A stretch of DNA of 39,665 nucleotides from Lutibacter sp. (GTDB lineage: Bacteria > Bacteroidota > Bacteroidia > Flavobacteriales > Flavobacteriaceae). The stretch spans positions 1-39,665 of the forward strand of contig JAQVGD010000007.1 in the NCBI GenBank assembly GCA_028696945.1, read 5' to 3'. The notes below the pieces were generated by a model, which worked only from the letters and a program-made list of their open reading frames with translations, was not told the origin of the DNA and made no database searches. Positions 802 through 14,925 of this stretch are shown here, one piece after another; position 1 is the stretch's first letter, and every line of letters starts with the position of its first letter. Both the position numbers and the translations under genes were made by a program.

Positions 802-1605
802 ATGGCAAGACAGAAAGGACATATTAAATATGTCGGAACATTAGGAGAAGTAAGACACTTCAAAATTAGAGGTAATCAAGGTTACTTTGCAGGATTAAAA
901 GGTGGACCAACTGGCGAACAAGTAAAAACTGCCCCAAGTTTTATTCGTACAAGAGAAAATATGGCTGAGTTTGCAGCTTGTGCGAATGCAGGAAAGGCTC
1001 TTAGAACTGGTTTATCAGCTTTGATGAAACAAATGTCAGACAGTCAACTTACCGGGCGACTAACTGCAATTATGAAAAAAATAAATATTGAAGATGGTTC
1101 AGAAGCCAGAGGCCAAAGAGCCGTTTTGGTTTCCCAACAACCTCAATATTTAAAAGGTTTGGATTTTAACCGGAATATTTCTTTTTATGGTGTTTTCAAT
1201 GCTCCTTTTACTTTATCAGCTACAGTTGGAAGAAATGAAAGTACATTAAGTATTCCTGCTTTCAATCCTTTGAATTATTTAAACATTCCTTCAGGAGCAA
1301 CACATTTTAGAATTATCAATGCTCTTTCTGTAGTTTCTGATTTTGTTTACAATCCTACTACTGGATCTTATGAGCCTGCTGATACTCTTTTGAATGAAAT
1401 GTCAAATATTGCTTATTCGGATTATACCCCTGTTGATGCTGCAACCACTTTGCTTGCTGTAACAGCAACCTTACCGGGTGCGCCAACAATTACTGCTGAT
1501 GTTGCAGTTTTAGGGAGCATCGGAATTGAATTTTATCAAATGGTAGGATCCAATTACTACTTATTTAATGCCGGTAACGCTTTAAAAATTCAAGAGGTTT
1601 TCTAA
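802..1605 (+). CDS. Conserved hypothetical protein (Bacteroidota-type)
   Basis: 267-aa ORF with good start context; N-terminus MARQKGHIKYVGTLGEVRHFKI resembles a family seen in Flavobacteriia; function unknown. Confidence 0.7.
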   Translation: MARQKGHIKYVGTLGEVRHFKIRGNQGYFAGLKGGPTGEQVKTAPSFIRTRENMAEFAACANAGKALRTGLSALMKQMSDSQLTGRLTAIMKKINIEDGSEARGQRAVLVSQQPQYLKGLDFNRNISFYGVFNAPFTLSATVGRNESTLSIPAFNPLNYLNIPSGATHFRIINALSVVSDFVYNPTTGSYEPADTLLNEMSNIAYSDYTPVDAATTLLAVTATLPGAPTITADVAVLGSIGIEFYQMVGSNYYLFNAGNALKIQEVF

Positions 1606-2810: not shown

Positions 2811-2953
2811 GTACAATATTAACGGTTTTGTATTATAATTTGTGCGACGAAAAAAAACAGATATTTTATCTAGGTAGCAATATTTTTACTGAATGTTTGG
2901 CTGTTTATATTTAGTTAAAATGAAAGCATAAATTATATGCAGCGCTGTACAAA
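2811..2953 (-). repeat. attC-like element B (3' of the 60-aa ORF)
   Basis: Collinear blocks shared with 4351-4483 (AATTTATG, TTTAA, AAACATTCA, TTGCTAC, GTCnCACAAnTnTTATAA, CGTT); left end TTTGTACA is complementary to the start of the upstream unit (TTGTACAAA). Confidence 0.65.
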
Positions 2954-2954
2954 G

Positions 2955-3137
2955 TCAGTTTGAAATCCCTTCTAAACTATTTTCTTCTAAGATCTCGTAT
3001 GCCGATGAAATTTCATCTGATAATTGATATTTAATCATAAATGGAATCTCGAAAAGGTCGTTTTTACCAGTTGATTTTTTGATGTCATCAACAAAATTTG
3101 ATAAATCGTTTATTTCCCTTTTTTTATTATTATCCAT
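2955..3137 (-). CDS. Small hypothetical protein (60 aa), partner of the SDH-like protease
   Basis: Short ORF immediately downstream (3-nt gap) of 3141..4331 on the same strand. Confidence 0.55.
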   Translation of the reverse strand: MDNNKKREINDLSNFVDDIKKSTGKNDLFEIPFMIKYQLSDEISSAYEILEENSLEGISN

Positions 3138-3140
3138 AGC

Positions 3141-4331
3141 TTAATTGTTTAATATTTTAACCTTTCTGTTAAGTTGTAATTCAAGCTGATTCCTTACAGG
3201 GTTTAAATTTACATTAAATCCACAACTATCACAAACTAAATCTTCTATATCATTTAGTTTTAATTCAGATTCTGAAAGTTGGTCGACAGGAATAGCTTTT
3301 AATGTGTGAATTTTTGAGCATTTTGGACATTTTTGTTCAATTTTAGCCTCAATTTTTTGATTTTTTATATTATTTCCAATTGGAAAAGGTATTGATGTTC
3401 CTCCTTGGACAACTTGATTTCTGAAAATTTTTTGTGTATCAGTGAAGAATAATTTATAAGTTGATGATGAAGCATAAATCAATCTAATAACTGTTTTTAT
3501 TTTATAAACGATTTCTGCTAAATCTTTATTGTCATCTATCCTGTCAATTTTCAACCATTCCCTCAAATCTTCAATTTTTAAAGACCTACCGTGTGTTCTT
3601 AGTTTTGATTGATTTGTTAATTCCTCTGCAACTTTCTTTGCTCTTTTCAGTTTGTATTCTGTGTCAACTGTTATACCATTTGTTTCAGTAATGGTCCAAT
3701 CCTTAAATTTATATTTAACTAACCAATCTGAAACTAAATCTTTTGCAAATTCTAATGAGTTTATTATTCTCTTAATTTCTCCAGGAGATACTTGCGAAAT
3801 TATTACAGCGTCAACAGGATTTAGCCCTCTGTTTTTAGCTGCTTCAATTTTCTTTTCTTTTATCCATTCATAGTAATCATATGCAGAAACTACAGACCTG
3901 CCAATTCTTACTTGTGCATCGATAGGTCCAAGACTACCAGAATCAGTCATTGAAATATTATGACCAGAGAGAGCTAAAATTGTTCCAGCACTTTTTGCTT
4001 CACTTGCGATTATAAAATTGACTTCACTAAATTTGTTATGTAGAAATTTGGCAATTTCTTCTGCACTTTCTCCACTTCCTCCGGGACTTTCAATATAAAA
4101 ATCAATTTTTTTACAAGTATAGTTTCTTAATAAATCTTGAATTATGTAGAAATCATCTTGTGTCAGAGATATATTCCCATCTTTTGAATTTCCTTTGTCG
4201 AAATCAGCAGAATAGACAAATAAGAAACGACCTGTAGAAGTTTCATAATCTTCTATTAATTGATGGAGTTCCTTGTGTAAATCTGTGATACTTAATCTTT
4301 TGTCAATGTATTCTTGTAATAAACTTTTCAT
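3141..4331 (-). CDS. ClpP/crotonase-fold serine protease (SDH/SppA-like, PF01972-type) with C-terminal zinc ribbon
   Basis: KIDFYIESPGGSGESAEEIAKFL...NFIIASEAKSAGTILALSGHNISMTDSGSLGPIDAQV and CPKCSK...CDSCGF. Confidence 0.85.
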   Translation of the reverse strand: MKSLLQEYIDKRLSITDLHKELHQLIEDYETSTGRFLFVYSADFDKGNSKDGNISLTQDDFYIIQDLLRNYTCKKIDFYIESPGGSGESAEEIAKFLHNKFSEVNFIIASEAKSAGTILALSGHNISMTDSGSLGPIDAQVRIGRSVVSAYDYYEWIKEKKIEAAKNRGLNPVDAVIISQVSPGEIKRIINSLEFAKDLVSDWLVKYKFKDWTITETNGITVDTEYKLKRAKKVAEELTNQSKLRTHGRSLKIEDLREWLKIDRIDDNKDLAEIVYKIKTVIRLIYASSSTYKLFFTDTQKIFRNQVVQGGTSIPFPIGNNIKNQKIEAKIEQKCPKCSKIHTLKAIPVDQLSESELKLNDIEDLVCDSCGFNVNLNPVRNQLELQLNRKVKILNN

Positions 4332-4350
4332 AGGTATATTCTTTAATTTT

Positions 4351-4483
4351 GTACAACGAGTTATAAGACTTGTGTGACTGGAAAATCAGAGATTCTACGG
4401 AAGTAGCAAATCGTTTGTTGAATGTTTATCGGTTTGTTATATGGTTTAAACGGGAACATAAATTTTGTGGGTTATTAGCTACA
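4351..4483 (-). repeat. attC-like element A (3' of the 327-aa ORF)
   Basis: Homologous to 2811-2953; its left end TGTAGCTAA is the reverse complement of the start of its own unit (TTAGCTACA at 5473-5481). Confidence 0.65.
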
Positions 4484-5462
4484 GTGTGTATATTTGACCT
4501 TGAATGTTATTAATCCGTTGGTTTAGAAGTTTTATTTTATATTCTAAATGATGACTTAAAATAAAAGGGAAATCTTGCTCATTTTCTTTTTCAGATCCAT
4601 TAAACCAAGATAATCTTATGTTTTCACATTCATTCTCCATATAGGAATTAAATTGATTTATATTCTTTTTAAAATTTTTTAATTTTTCTTTAGAATCAAA
4701 GGATTCTTTTAACTCATTATAGAGGCTTGTCAGTTTATTCTCTTTTCCGTCAATTATAAGTTGAAAATAATTTTTTCTTTCTAAATCATCAATAGGAATT
4801 AATTTTTCATAAATTTTCTCCGAACAAAGGAAGAAAAACGCAAATTGTAATAAAATGTTATCTAGTAAATATTGAGAAATTTTTTCATAACTCAATTCGA
4901 GTTTATGAGTAGTTGAAAGAAAATCGTGACAAATAACATTACGTATTTCATAAACTTCTTTTAAGTTTTTTAATATTTTTCCAATACCTGAAATACTTTT
5001 AGTTGGAATTACATCTTCCAAATCAACTTGTTCGATTACATCTATTAAAAAATCTTGATTTAACTCTTTGTAAATATCAATTTTGGTTATTTCTATGAAT
5101 TGAGAAAAAATATTTTCAATTGAAGAATATTTTAAAGAATATGATATTAAATCACCAATAGAAAAAGATGATTTTGTTATTTGAAAAACATCTTCAATTT
5201 CAATCTTTGTTCTTTTTATTAAACTTTTTGAACTAGTTAAATACATTTCATCCGAATTAATTATAGATGAAAAACTTTCTTTAAAAAAACTTTCGTTTGA
5301 GGCAACAATATGAATTGGAATGGTTAAAAGAAATGATTTATCATTTCTCTTTTGCTCTAATTGTTCATACAGTTTAACTAACTCACTAGGTGTGTGAATA
5401 TAATGGGTTTCTTTAATGTTTTCTTTTGATTTTTTTATTCTATCATTTAATATCATTTTCAA
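4479..5462 (-). CDS. HEPN-like domain protein of unknown function
   Basis: 327-aa ORF; EIRNVICHDF matches the RX4H HEPN signature in an alpha-helical context. Confidence 0.6.
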   Translation of the reverse strand: MKMILNDRIKKSKENIKETHYIHTPSELVKLYEQLEQKRNDKSFLLTIPIHIVASNESFFKESFSSIINSDEMYLTSSKSLIKRTKIEIEDVFQITKSSFSIGDLISYSLKYSSIENIFSQFIEITKIDIYKELNQDFLIDVIEQVDLEDVIPTKSISGIGKILKNLKEVYEIRNVICHDFLSTTHKLELSYEKISQYLLDNILLQFAFFFLCSEKIYEKLIPIDDLERKNYFQLIIDGKENKLTSLYNELKESFDSKEKLKNFKKNINQFNSYMENECENIRLSWFNGSEKENEQDFPFILSHHLEYKIKLLNQRINNIQGQIYTL

Positions 5463-5765
5463 ATTTTAATATTGTAGCTAACTTGTCTTGCCCCAATAAA
5501 AATTGATTATTATCATTAATATTTCACTGATAATATAATATTGTATTCCTATTTATTTGAATTAGCAATAATTTTTATGGATGACTAAAATAAGCAAAAT
5601 AAATTTAAGTTTCAATAAAGTACAACAATTTAAAATGTTTATTGAATTATATAATCTTGTTTTAATTACATCCCCCTACTCTGGCTCAGAATGATTGTGT
5701 GAAATTATAAACTTCTTCTTTATACAAATTTGTTTTATTAAATAAGGAAATGAATTTAAAAAAGC

Positions 5766-5858
5766 GCAAAGGCAAAAAATAAAGGCTTTTTTTAAAGCTT
5801 TTATTGTGCGGAATTGGAAGCTGTATGCAGTGAAGTGAAACGGAACGGAATACTGCTG
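5766..5858 (+). repeat. Direct repeat R2 (~93 bp)
   Basis: Near-identical to 2671-2762. Confidence 0.9.
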
Positions 5859-5949
5859 TAAATGTGGGTATTCTTGTTATTTTGAAAATGCTGTTAATTT
5901 AATTCTAAATGACTTAGATTTTAACTTAGTTCTGCTTAAAATTGTTACT

Positions 5950-6657: not shown

Positions 6658-6711
6658 TAAATTAAAATATATTGATTAAAAAAAGGAATATTCTTTCATT
6701 ATTTAGGTTAA

Positions 6712-6732
6712 CCGGAACGGAATACTGCTGTA
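6712..6732 (+). repeat. Truncated copy (R3) of direct repeat
   Basis: CGGAACGGAATACTGCTGTA shared with end of R2. Confidence 0.7.
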
Positions 6733-6763
6733 GATATTGAGTTTTTATTTTTTATTGGAAATA

Positions 6764-7695: not shown

Positions 7696-10566
7696 TTAAT
7701 TTCCTGTTATCCCATTGATAAAAGTTTCCACAAAACCGACTATTTTTTTTGTGATGCTATCCCCTAATTTTTTGCGAATTAATACTGAAGGCTTATCCCC
7801 TTCTATTAAATCAAGGACTTCATCCCTTAATGGATCTCTTTCGGCAAATAGATAGTTTTCTATCAATTTATGGGTTTTTTCTGGTGATAAGTTTTCTTCT
7901 TTTACTAACTGGTTGAATGCTTTTTGCTGTTCTGAGTTCCAGTACTTGTCAAATTCTTCTGGAATGGTATCTGTATCTTCAATTACCGGCAAGTTTTCTA
8001 AAATAAACTTTTCAATTAATTCACGTTTACTTCTTAAATTGGCTTCTCCAGTCAATAAATCGACTATTTCTTTGTGTTTCTTTTCTTTTTCTGCTTTTGT
8101 GGTGTCTTTAAGTCCAGCCAACAATTTAAGGATATAGGTAACATTTACTTCATCACGGTGAATTAATTCCAATTCAAAATCTACATCTTCAAGAATTGAC
8201 ACTTTTTCTACTTGATGTTCGTCTTTTACTTTATCGTATAAATCGAGGTATTTGCTTTTATAATCTTCAAAGAGTTGCTCGTTCATCGCCAGATCATCCC
8301 AAACAAAATCGGCAAAAGTTGACATTGAATTTTTGATTCGCATTAATTCCCTGAACGCTTTTACAAACGCCAGTTCATCTTCTTCACTTACCAAATTGTT
8401 AACACTGTTCACCGTTGGCACTATTTTTAATAAAGCTATAAAAGCATCGTTAAATTTTGTTACATAATCCTCGTAAGGTTTCATTATGATTTCTTCAATG
8501 GCTTCCTTGTTACTGAATAAGGTTATGGCTTCGTCTGTTGCCTTTTTAAGGTTTCTGAACACAATAATGTTCCCCTGTGATTTCTGTTCGTTTAAGATGC
8601 GATTTGTTCTTGAATAGGCTTGTATCAAGCCGTGATACCTTAGGTTTTTATCTACATAAAGCGTATTTAACGGCGGACTGTCAAACCCTGTTAAATACAT
8701 ATTGACCACCAATAAAATATCTATTTTACGCTCTTTTACTTTCTTTGAAATATCGTTGTAATAGTTATAAAATGATTGGCTGTCTTTTGTTGAGAAATTA
8801 GAACCAAACATTTCATTATAATGTGTTATGTAATCGTCTAATTTTTCCCTGCTATGTTTGTGTAAACCGTAAAGAACCGGAGATTCTTCAACTACAGAAA
8901 CTTCTTCCGGAATAAACCCGTTGGCATCGGCATCATCTTCATTGGCGACATAACTAAATATTGTTGCAATTTTTAAATTGTGCAGGCCTTCTTCTTTTTT
9001 GCGTTGTAAAATATCGTAATATTTTATAAGCGTATTGATACCACTAACACAAAACATTCCCGTAAATTCTTTGTTGTATGTTTTTTTATTGTGATTTGCA
9101 ATGATATAATCGGCAATTTTTTCCAGACGTTTTGGGGATTCCATCAACTCTTTTGTATCAATGTCTTCCACATCAATATCTATTTCTGTTGCGGGCGCAT
9201 CGCGATACGCCCCTACACGCTTGTAGCGACCAACATATTCAATTGAAAACTTTAATACATTTTCATCTTTTATGGCATCTGTAATTACATATTTGTGCAA
9301 ACATTCTCCGAATAATTCTTTGGTTGTTCGTTTTCCCAATTCATTTTTTACTGCGTTATCGGCAAAAATTGGCGTTCCTGTAAATCCAAATAGTTAAATA
9401 TTCTTGAAGAATGCTTTTATCCGATTGTGGGTATCGCCAAACTGACTTCTGTGGCATTCATCAAAAATAAATACAACGCGTTCATTTTGGAGTTTTTCCA
9501 TTTTAGCCAAATACTGCTTTTTACTGATGGCGGTATTTAGTTTTTGAATGGTGGTAACAATGAGCTTTGTATCGTTTGAAAATTGTTTTACCAATGCTTT
9601 TGTATTGTCAGTTCCGTCAATACTTCCTTTGCTAAAACTATTAAATTCTTTGGTTGTTTGGTAATCTAAATCTTTCCTGTCCACCACAAACACCACTTTT
9701 TTCACTTGTGGCATTTGCATTATTATTTGACTGGCTTTAAAAGATGTTAGTGTTTTTCCCGATCCGGTTGTATGCCAAATATAACCGTTTTGATTGCTGT
9801 TTTTTACTTTATCTATTAAGGCTTCAACGGCATAATATTGATATGGGCGAAGCACCATTAAAATCTTATTGGCTTCATTTAAAACCACATACTTACAAAT
9901 CATTTTAGAAATATGGCAAGGTTCTAAAAACTCACTTGTAAAGCCGTTTAAAATATTGGTTAAACGCTTATTTTCTTTATCTGTCCAATAAAATGTTTGT
10001 TTGAATGATTGGTATTTGTTGTTAGCATAATACTTTGTGTTTACTCCATTACTAATAATGAAAATTTGAATGTATTGAAACAATGCAGCACCAGCACCAA
10101 AAGAATGGCGTTGGTAACGATTGGTTTGGTTGAATGCTTCTTTAAGTTCTAATCCCCTTCGTTTCAACTCTATTTGCACCAACGGCAAACCGTTTATAAG
10201 CAGCGTAACATCGTAGCGATTTTTATAGGTGCCTTCCATTGTAACCTGTTGGGTTACTTGAAATTGATTTTGGCACCAATGGTTGGTATTGATAAACTCA
10301 AAATAAAGGTTGTCGCCGTTGTCTTTTAAAATATGTTGTTTTTCCCGCAGTGTTTTGGCTTTTTCAAATACCGACCCTTTGCTGAGAATATTTAAGACCT
10401 TGTCGAACTCTTTATCAGAAAAAACAATATTGTTGTGCTTTTCCAGTTGGTTTTTAAGATTGGAAAGCAATGCTCTTTCATCATTAATTACAACATTTGC
10501 ATACCCCAAAATTTGTAGTTGTGCGACTAGTTGTTCTTCTAATATTAATTCCGGTTGTTTAGCCAT
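7696..10566 (-). pseudogene. hsdR: Type I restriction enzyme R subunit, interrupted by in-frame TAA
   Basis: ORFs 9394..10587 and 7696..9339 are in the same frame; N-terminal nuclease motif, IWHTTGSGKTLTSFKAS Walker A, FIFDECHRSQFG; after the TAA the frame continues LFGFTGTPIFADNAVKNELGKRTTKELFG. Confidence 0.88.
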
Positions 10567-10627
10567 AATTAAATTGATATAAAACAAAGATTTGGTTTAT
10601 ATAGTTGCTTAGGTTGAAAATAAAATG

Positions 10628-12122: not shown

Positions 12123-13370
12123 TTATATAAACAGTTGCTGCAACAAACCCTTTTTCCAAACTTCTGTATTGGTTATTTGCGCTTGGCAATGGTTAATTTT
12201 TTCATCAATAGCCGATAAAAAATTGGCTATTTTGGTTTGTTCGTGGCGGGTAGGAATTGAGATTTCCATTTTAACTAAACTAACATAACTTAATGTATTT
12301 CTTACGCTCCCCTCAAATGAATTATTCATTTTCATTAAAAATTGCTCAGATGAAAACCAATTTAAAAGAAAATCATCTTTTAGAAATTTATCTTTTGCTC
12401 TAAAAGAAATGTACAATGGACTTATAACAGATATTTCATCATCAAATTTATATGCCAATGAACCTACATCTATACGTGAGGGGTTGTATGCAAAATGTCC
12501 TTTTTCAATTACATAATAATTTGAAGTATCTTTACTAGCAACCCGTCTATCCTCAAACATTTCATCTTGGTTGATAAAACCGAACTTATTGCTAACACTT
12601 TGAACTAATAAATATTTCTGCCTTTTATTTTTATTAGAATTTTTACTCAAAACCTCTCCCAACTTCTTCTCCTCCCAATCCGGAAAATCATTTCCATTAT
12701 CATCTTTAAATCTTAATTCCTGGGAGAATATTTGTTGCATCACGCCTTTTTTGTACTGCTCTAAAAGGTTTTTCTTTTGTTTTAAGGCTTGTAGTTTTTC
12801 ATCAACTGCCGTTAGGAATGTGGCGATTTTTTGTTGTTCTGGGAGGGTTGGGAAATTTAAATGAATAGATGATAAAGTTTCTTGCCCTACATTAAATCGT
12901 GTACTTCCTCCAGATCTAGACGTAATTTCATCTCTAGCTATATCTGTTTTTAATAATTTATTTAAAAAAACAGGATCGTATTCTCCAATTTTTCTTCCTC
13001 GAATTACAAATCCACCAAAAGTTGCAGTATTGTATTTATCAAGATATACGCAAGCAGTCCCGACTTCTTCTCTAGTTTCTGAACTTCTTTGGAAAAGAAT
13101 ATCACCATAGCTAACAGGGAATTTAGCAACCATTTCTTTATTAACATTAACGCTTCCAATAATGCTGTCGTGAGTTATAAAATCATTATTTAGAATATCC
13201 AAAACATTAATAAATTTATAACCGCTTCCATATAGTTCTTTTGAAGCATTAATGCCATTCTTGAACTCTAATAAATTACTTAATTTATTAGTTCCCCATT
13301 CGCCATTAAATTCAGGAAAGCGCAAAGCTGGTATGTTCTTTACTTTTTCCATATTAAAACGGTGTTTCAA
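12123..13370 (-). CDS. hsdS: Type I restriction-modification specificity subunit
   Basis: Two TRD/CR repeats: PTLPEQQKIATFLTAVDEKLQALKQKKNLLEQYKKGVMQQIF and PTRHEQTKIANFLSAIDEKI. Confidence 0.95.
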   Translation of the reverse strand: MKHRFNMEKVKNIPALRFPEFNGEWGTNKLSNLLEFKNGINASKELYGSGYKFINVLDILNNDFITHDSIIGSVNVNKEMVAKFPVSYGDILFQRSSETREEVGTACVYLDKYNTATFGGFVIRGRKIGEYDPVFLNKLLKTDIARDEITSRSGGSTRFNVGQETLSSIHLNFPTLPEQQKIATFLTAVDEKLQALKQKKNLLEQYKKGVMQQIFSQELRFKDDNGNDFPDWEEKKLGEVLSKNSNKNKRQKYLLVQSVSNKFGFINQDEMFEDRRVASKDTSNYYVIEKGHFAYNPSRIDVGSLAYKFDDEISVISPLYISFRAKDKFLKDDFLLNWFSSEQFLMKMNNSFEGSVRNTLSYVSLVKMEISIPTRHEQTKIANFLSAIDEKINHCQAQITNTEVWKKGLLQQLFI

Positions 13371-14925
13371 TGTTAAGTTGTTTGCAGAAATCGGTTATTG
13401 TTTTATCCGTTTCCTCAATCCGGGTATCCAAATCTTTTATTTCATTGGCAACGGCATTAATGTCTATGCTTTCTTCGGCTTCAAAGGTATCCACATAACG
13501 AGGAATGTTTAGGTTGTAATTGTTTGTCGCAATTTCTTGCAATGTAGCACGCTTGCTGTATTTGTCTTCTTCCAAACGTTGGCGGTAGGTTTCAATAATT
13601 TTGTCAATATGTTCCTCACGCAATACATTTTGGGTTTTTACCTTTTCAAAATGTTGGCTGGCATCTATAAACAACACATCTTCGGGATTTTCGCGGCATT
13701 TTTTAAATACCATAATGCACGTAGGAATGCTTGTGCCATAAAATATATTAGCCGGCAAGCCAATTACGGCATCCAAATAATTACGGTCTTCAATTAAATA
13801 TTTACGAATGTGCTGTTCGGCCCCACCTCTAAACAAAGCACCGTGCGGCAACACCAATGCCATTGTGCCATTATCGGCTAAATGGTGAATCATATGCTGC
13901 ACAAAAGCAAAATCGGCTTTACTGCCTGGTGCTAATTTACCGTATTGGCTAAAGCGATCATCACTTGTAAATAGTGGGTTTGCGCTCCAATTTGCCGAAA
14001 ATGGCGGATTGGCCACAATGGCTTCAAAAGTCATTCCCAAATGTTGCGGATGCTCTAAAGTATCTTCTTGTTTAATGTCGAATTTACGGTAATGAACGCC
14101 GTGTAAAATCATATTCATTCTGCACAAGTTATACGTAGTGCGGTTCATTTCTTGTCCGTAAAACATACTTACTTCTTTAACTTGCCGTGCAATACGCAAT
14201 AAAAGGGAGCCGCTGCCGGCCGTGGGATCATAAGCAGTTTTGAGCTTTGTCTTTCCTGTGGTCACAATTTTAGCCAATATGGTGCTTACCTCTTGCGGCG
14301 TGTAAAATTCCCCTGCTTTTTTTCCTGCACCACTGGCAAACTGCCCTATTAAATATTCGTAGGCATCACCCAAAACATCTAACTCGGTATCTTGTAATTT
14401 GAAATCAATTTTATCTAAATGAGAAAGTACTTTTGCTATAATTTCGTTACGGGCTTCGGGCGTTTTCCCCAGTTTGGTAGAATTTAAATCCATATCCTCA
14501 AACAGATTGTCGAAATCCTCTTCGCTTTCCGTACCCATTGTGCTCAACTGAATGTTGATTAGGATTTTTTGAAGGTCTTCAATAATAAAATTGCTTTGTC
14601 CTTCAACATCGCTATTGCCACGTTTTGCCACTTCACTAAAAAGTTCGTTTGGCGTTAAAAAATAGCCTAAGGTTTCTAATGCTTCTTCTCTAATAGCATC
14701 AATGTATTTAATTCCGTTTTTCGTATTTTCGTTGATGGATTTGTATTTTATGCCGTCGGATTTTAGAATGCTGTTGGCATAAATTTCCATTTTTTCGGCA
14801 AGGTATTTATAGAAAATAAAGCCTAATATGTAATCTCGAAACTCGTCGGCATTCATTTTGCCTCTTAGGGTATTGGCAATATTCCAGAGTTGTTGTTCCA
14901 GTTGTTTTTTATGGTCTTCTGACAT
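13354..14925 (-). CDS. hsdM: Type I restriction-modification DNA methyltransferase
   Basis: DPTAGSGSLLL and ANPPFSANW methyltransferase motifs; GEFYTPQEV. Confidence 0.97.
   Translation of the reverse strand: MSEDHKKQLEQQLWNIANTLRGKMNADEFRDYILGFIFYKYLAEKMEIYANSILKSDGIKYKSINENTKNGIKYIDAIREEALETLGYFLTPNELFSEVAKRGNSDVEGQSNFIIEDLQKILINIQLSTMGTESEEDFDNLFEDMDLNSTKLGKTPEARNEIIAKVLSHLDKIDFKLQDTELDVLGDAYEYLIGQFASGAGKKAGEFYTPQEVSTILAKIVTTGKTKLKTAYDPTAGSGSLLLRIARQVKEVSMFYGQEMNRTTYNLCRMNMILHGVHYRKFDIKQEDTLEHPQHLGMTFEAIVANPPFSANWSANPLFTSDDRFSQYGKLAPGSKADFAFVQHMIHHLADNGTMALVLPHGALFRGGAEQHIRKYLIEDRNYLDAVIGLPANIFYGTSIPTCIMVFKKCRENPEDVLFIDASQHFEKVKTQNVLREEHIDKIIETYRQRLEEDKYSKRATLQEIATNNYNLNIPRYVDTFEAEESIDINAVANEIKDLDTRIEETDKTITDFCKQLNIETPF

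Follow-up and report, generated by a model that had tools for sequence, protein, structure and literature searches.

The DNA analysed here, hereafter the window, is a stretch of 39,665 nucleotides from a Lutibacter genome (Flavobacteriaceae). Its minus strand carries an array of two gene cassettes preceded by an attI-like site, and the features of this array, in positions of the whole stretch, are the following.

5479..5607, minus strand: attI-like site without an integrase, whose end is marked by the cut G5482^T5481 (..GACAAG^TT)
4357..5481, minus strand: cassette A, starting with the TT behind the attI junction and ending with the G of the cassette's own attC
4479..5462, minus strand: gene of cassette A, an ORF of 327 aa if started at TTG, or of 324 aa if started at the ATG at 5453
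4355..4483, minus strand: attC of cassette A, with R'' TGTAGCTAAT at 4483-4474 and the final GTT at 4357-4355
2823..4356, minus strand: cassette B, with own-end complementarity of TTTGTACAGC and GTTGTACAAA (9/10)
3141..4331, minus strand: SDH-type Clp-fold serine protease-like gene of cassette B, 396 aa (Pfam PF01972, 44.5 bits, cutoff 31.3)
2955..3137, minus strand: 60-aa ORF, second gene of cassette B, taken from the list of ORFs
2821..2953, minus strand: attC of cassette B, with R'' TTTGTACAGC at 2953-2944 and the final GTT at 2823-2821

On the minus strand, unit A (5481-4357) begins at the cut in ..GACAAG^TTAGCTACA and unit B (4356-2823) at that in ..CTCG^TTGTACAAA. Each ends in an element with the same ordered blocks, as the original prediction had described, its nominal edge at 2811 lying slightly past the last GTT. 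The complementarity claimed between the start of each unit and its own element has been confirmed with one mismatch in ten positions for cassette A (TGTAGCTAAT against GTTAGCTACA, 9/10) as for cassette B, and the junctions GTTGTAC and GTTAGCT each agree with GTTRRRY at the 6 of 7 positions first counted. In both sites the single mismatch sits inside the AAC triplet, altered to AAT in the attC of cassette A and to AGC in that of cassette B; the sites therefore look slightly degenerate or decayed, and the two cassettes may no longer move. Scores of 93.7 bits (cassette A) and 74.7 bits (cassette B) were obtained for these elements with an nhmmer model built from 17 element copies, both window elements among them. 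The stop codon of the cassette A gene falls within the R'' arm of the attC. Its protein has a weak and marginal TIR-like/ThsB match (PADLOC, E 9e-4, 17 bits) and no match in a Pfam search; no Pfam family was matched by the 60-aa ORF either. Together with the SDH-type Clp-fold protease, this marginal ThsB-like match lends weak support, in both cassettes, to the earlier description of the genes as defence-like. A search with integrase profiles across the window gave no match, in agreement with the absence of an integrase noted from the start. With two attC about 1.4 kb apart and no integrase-profile match nearby, the array resembles a CALIN, in which two or more attC lie within less than 4 kb of each other and no integrase is nearby; unlike a CALIN, it begins at an attI-like site, a conserved left flank that had been overlooked in the original prediction, and the integrase family linked to such arrays is not IntI.

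The surroundings of the array have features of their own. Direct repeats (2679-2767 and 5775-5863, 87% identical over 89 nt) lie on either side of the attI and cassettes, with a partial third copy at 6707-6746. A type I restriction gene (7696-10587, minus strand) seems split into ORFs of 397 and 547 aa, which may reflect a broken gene or a sequencing error; from reading the sequences, we take these ORFs to be HsdR-like and the neighbours at 12123-14925 to be hsdM/hsdS-like. A 267-aa gene, presumably related to DUF6266 as judged by eye, is located close to the array (802-1605, plus strand).

Stretches 68-88% identical to the last 130 nt or so before cassette A occur at 11 other places in the genus. 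Most of these copies end at the same ..ACAAG^TT and can be aligned with attI-like sequence located 3' of the linked integrases described below. Behind eight of the 11 lies a cassette whose own ends pair with no more than 2 mismatches, in five cases with an attC of the type found here, and at the other three no convincing paired cassette was detected. A joined-flank search of the genus for an empty site found none and exposed these attI copies instead. The best description of the window is that of an outlying array located at an attI copy without an integrase. The copies in the genus (L209-L219) are located 3' of UmuDC-like genes or short conserved ORFs, and the variable genes after them are TIR-like, AAA ATPase and GIY-YIG-like. 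Genes similar to the 267-aa gene occur near some of them (L214, L215, L216), where conserved ORFs of 131, 74 and 63 aa beyond the cargo suggest a shared island type.

A DNA search with the window element matched nine of 201 Flavobacteriaceae genomes, the core of the query being covered and the outer ends differing. The aligned core reads AACACCTCATA[A/T]AATTTATGC ... GCACAAATC[T/A]TATAAAAACTCGTT, in which the A/T position of the left arm covaries with the paired T/A position of the right. A search with a model of the family detected these attC in 37 of the 38 genomes of the genus, and a family profile recovered 40 copies in the source genome, where a first exact pattern search had found only one site because the pattern was too strict. 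This genome is a fragmented draft with an estimated contamination of 6.9%, and the same features are present in closed relatives. No matching family was found in a search of Rfam with the elements. Copies occur directly 3' of unrelated genes on the same strand, among them a ParE-type toxin-antitoxin pair and an FRG-domain gene. The possibility that the elements are tied to homologues of the two window genes, raised at the outset as an argument against cassettes, has been rejected: the elements follow many unrelated genes, loci with homologues of the protease lack the element, and the cassettes carry unrelated proteins.

A tyrosine recombinase beside a dense array, for which a search had been proposed, was found in the genomes of relatives and differs from canonical IntI. 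In genome G173, an attI-like site and four cassettes lie behind such a recombinase, and the attC arm of each cassette pairs with the start of that cassette; the inner sequences of the four attC differ, and the pairing is therefore not inherited from one repeat. The recombinase family is present in 131 of the 201 sampled Flavobacteriaceae genomes (E < 1e-55). A chain test was applied to 55 integrase loci, drawn from Flavobacteriaceae genomes with matches, from other matches and from named organisms. Starting at a GTT just 3' of the integrase, an attC with matching inner arms was sought whose outer arm pairs with the exact junction over 5 or more nt in addition to the triplet, and the search was continued from the GTT of that attC. 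Arrays were found at 39 of the loci, mostly from Flavobacteriaceae, giving 253 attC in chains of 2 to 17 cassettes within the 12 kb scanned; as controls, neither 165 shuffles nor a search in the opposite direction gave a chain longer than 1. At the other 16 loci there was no chain of at least two; a relaxed search recovered a first cassette in a few of the chainless loci, some being still without a chain, and a plasmid relative in Chryseobacterium had no array.

In a complete genome of the same genus (G210, one contig), the integrase (608024-609193) and its attI junction (609229) are followed by a superintegron in which 50 or more linked cassettes, arranged in nine runs, extend to 699673, about 90 kb behind the integrase; 39 of 39 attC of the type found here lie on one strand. 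In drafts, contigs often end just behind the integrase (e.g., G045, G054, G075, G136, G144). This would be the outcome of assemblies breaking at repeated attC; drafts will under-report arrays. The source genome carries an integrase of the linked family on contig C65, where the sequence stops shortly behind the attI, and this integrase clusters with those of Lutibacter. Named carriers are uncultured Lutibacter, the Flavobacteriaceae isolate S0862, Winogradskyella ursingii and Seonamhaeicola aphaedonensis. The same integrase family, with 13 cassettes, has been detected in Rufibacter sp. SYSU D00344 (Cytophagales, L094), where the attC are mostly 55-58 nt long, against about 120 nt elsewhere, and single candidate first cassettes were located behind the integrases of Aquiflexum and Algoriphagus. 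A divergent zinc-ribbon-like gene of 125-137 aa lies beside the integrase in six of the 15 loci with enough upstream sequence, and such a gene is found upstream of the integrase at L051, L052, L062, L063 and L065. In genome G126 (L051, L052, L053), several near-identical group II intron-type reverse transcriptase genes are located close to the integrase loci.

The longest ORF lies on the attC strand in 234 of the 253 cassettes (92%), with a median distance of 15 nt from stop codon to AAC. Almost no families are shared among 89 cassette proteins, whose matches include restriction-methylation, SLATT and abortive-infection proteins alongside many unknowns, and duplicates of cassettes within an array, 92-100% identical, occur in several genomes. 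The proposal of attC-type cassettes is supported by this strand bias, by independent arrays in dozens of genera, by a conserved attI beside the integrases, and by the complementarity of own ends at 253 sites, for which matched controls were run.

Such complementarity, on whose recurrence elsewhere the original prediction depended, is the rule at the other sites. It covers GTT and 7 further nt at 188 of the 253 sites, 6 at 51 and 5 at 14, never exceeding 7, a distribution partly conditioned by the minimum of 5 paired nt in the chain test, just as the AAC and GTT present in 253/253 attC are a condition of the search and not a result. The controls address this bias, as does an unselected test on profile-defined attC of G210, in which runs of at least 5 nt were found in 13 of 18 adjacent pairs versus 27 of 1369 non-adjacent ones. 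The eighth position is a nearly invariant mismatch, where the cassette start has A and the attC arm has C. With the remaining junctions of its array, an attC pairs over 1.16 nt on average, and 5 nt or more are reached in 3% of cases. When the cassette circle is reconstituted, the bottom strand has a lower energy than in the array form at 246 of the 253 sites, the R stem forms at 251 sites versus 39 in the array form, and at 248 sites the top strand is the less stable of the two. Folding of the sites as arranged in the array gave no signal, since R' there belongs to the next unit. In their attC with paired R and L boxes, their G^TT cut point and their own-end pairing, the cassettes have the properties of those in canonical integrons.

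The integrases are distinct from those of canonical integrons. The catalytic residues RKHRHY are kept in the array-linked members, one of which (L201) ends before the Tyr in the ORF used. The segment from KGxKDR to HxLRH comprises 58-59 residues in 39/39 array-linked integrases, a XerA-like length, and 100 residues in 11/11 canonical IntI, class 1 IntI1 included. The roughly 42 residues that hold the IntI-specific domain (I2, patch III), a mark of the canonical integron, are missing from all 39, and scores against the NCBIfam integron integrase model TIGR02249 fall below its cutoff. All 39 also carry an N-terminal extension of about 85 aa, which is predicted, with good model confidence, to form a strand-helix domain. 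Among solved structures the nearest are archaeal XerA and Xer (PDB 5hxy, 4a8e), followed by Vibrio IntI4. The archaeal proteins are closest by sequence as well as fold and share the catalytic-domain spacing; the N-terminal extension is absent from both. We know of no cassette arrays associated with XerA or archaeal Xer. Phylogenetically, IntI forms one clade (100/99) and the Bacteroidota integrases a separate one (84/88). An AU test in which the two were held as an exclusive group did not reject the grouping (p-AU 0.055, and 0.16 when two I2-less neighbours of IntI were removed), so that a separate origin cannot be claimed.

Bacteroidota possess an attI-cassette-attC system linked to a recombinase that falls outside IntI in these tests. 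It is very likely that the linked recombinase is the cassette integrase and, judging from the sequences, likely that it acts on folded single strands. A cassette system whose enzyme recombines double-stranded attC in a dif-like manner, the folded strand having no role, would be in keeping with Xer relatives, which act on double-stranded sites, and with the absence of the I2 domain, which is credited with single-strand attC recognition (PMC7790495). Such a mechanism would not need the complementarity of R'' and R', which are separated by about 120 nt and free to differ from one cassette to the next but match within each, nor the joint swapping of the inner-arm A/T position and its partner, nor the stronger folding of the reconstituted circle and bottom strand, and on these grounds it appears unlikely. 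The resemblance of the attC to canonical ones (RYYYAAC / GTTRRRY-like, with inner L boxes) might instead indicate ordinary cassettes mobilised by a canonical IntI that is encoded elsewhere or was formerly present, the linked XerA-like recombinase being incidental. This is highly improbable, given that no IntI above the TIGR02249 cutoff was found in the 10 genomes searched, at least seven of which have arrays, that in genus after genus the arrays begin at a conserved attI a short distance behind the non-canonical integrase, and that attI types are shared among related integrases. Finally, REP-like intergenic repeats or terminators following genes by chance would also be short, repeated, 3' of genes and provided with hairpins, but this explanation can be dismissed in view of the per-cassette end pairing, the dense tandem arrays behind integrases, the fixed cut point, the inner sequences that differ within one array and the chain test, in which a REP family would give no chains.

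The evidence supports the view that units A and B belong, as gene cassettes, to a true gene-capture system of integron type. This system is widespread in Flavobacteriaceae and also occurs in other Bacteroidota. The region itself is, in all probability, an integrase-less integron array of this system, with cassettes moved by an I2-less XerA-like recombinase via folded attC. In the proposed mechanism, the R'' of the attC (C-N7-AAC) in a cassette circle would pair over 10 bp with the R' (GTT-N7-A) from the start of the same cassette, while L'' (about GTATAA) and L' would pair inside the R stem, the bottom strand thus folding into a hairpin. A tyrosine recombinase of the XerA-like clade, with the N-terminal extra domain and without I2, would cut at G^TT and join the folded attC to the attI located 30-190 nt behind its own gene. 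New cassettes would enter at attI, the arrays then growing, duplicating and shuffling, and attI copies that lie elsewhere without an integrase, as in the window, may also serve the enzyme as sites of cassette insertion.

The system works like an integron, and its integrase lies outside IntI by the membership test. As in chromosomal integrons and superintegrons (e.g., Vibrio, IntI), an attI lies beside a tyrosine recombinase and dense arrays are formed by cassettes of one or two genes, with duplications and with toxin-antitoxin, defence and unknown genes; the attC show the R''-L''-L'-R' order, the G^TT cut point and a bottom-strand hairpin, here deduced from sequence and computed folding. Unlike in chromosomal integrons, the integrase is outside the IntI clade, lacks the I2-containing segment, has the N-terminal extension and is encoded on the same strand as the cassettes, the R pairing extends to GTT+7 at most and is closed by a conserved C/A mismatch, and the core is GTTR followed by variable bases instead of GTTRRRY. 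Cassettes can insert at non-classical attG sites, outside the main platform. The outside insertion point in the present case differs in being a conserved attI homologue of about 130 bp, found at many loci of the genus.

In Bacteroidetes, only In0 elements had been recorded earlier, and a single complete integron was reported with IntegronFinder 2.0, in Salinibacter (PMC9024848). An early survey selected IntI by the additional domain (PMC2426708), which archaeal integrons have also been reported to possess (PMC9668308). Lacking I2, the present integrases have probably caused genome surveys to miss the system. No account of it was found in the open-access literature, and one in a preprint or closed journal is possible. 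There is a good chance that the system represents a second integron lineage, widespread in Bacteroidota, in which the integrase handles folded attC without I2 by another structural solution, perhaps the N-terminal domain, being either independent of IntI or a pre-I2 state, and which also spreads cassettes to integrase-less attI copies. Integrons are held to use single-stranded attC by virtue of the acquired I2 helix, a role without direct proof because deletion of I2 abolishes IntI1 function (PMC7790495). A natural I2-less integrase family located at attC arrays makes this role in single-strand chemistry testable. The presence of the family in 131 of 201 sampled Flavobacteriaceae genomes, compared with near-absence in IntegronFinder surveys, implies a large unrecorded pool of cassettes.
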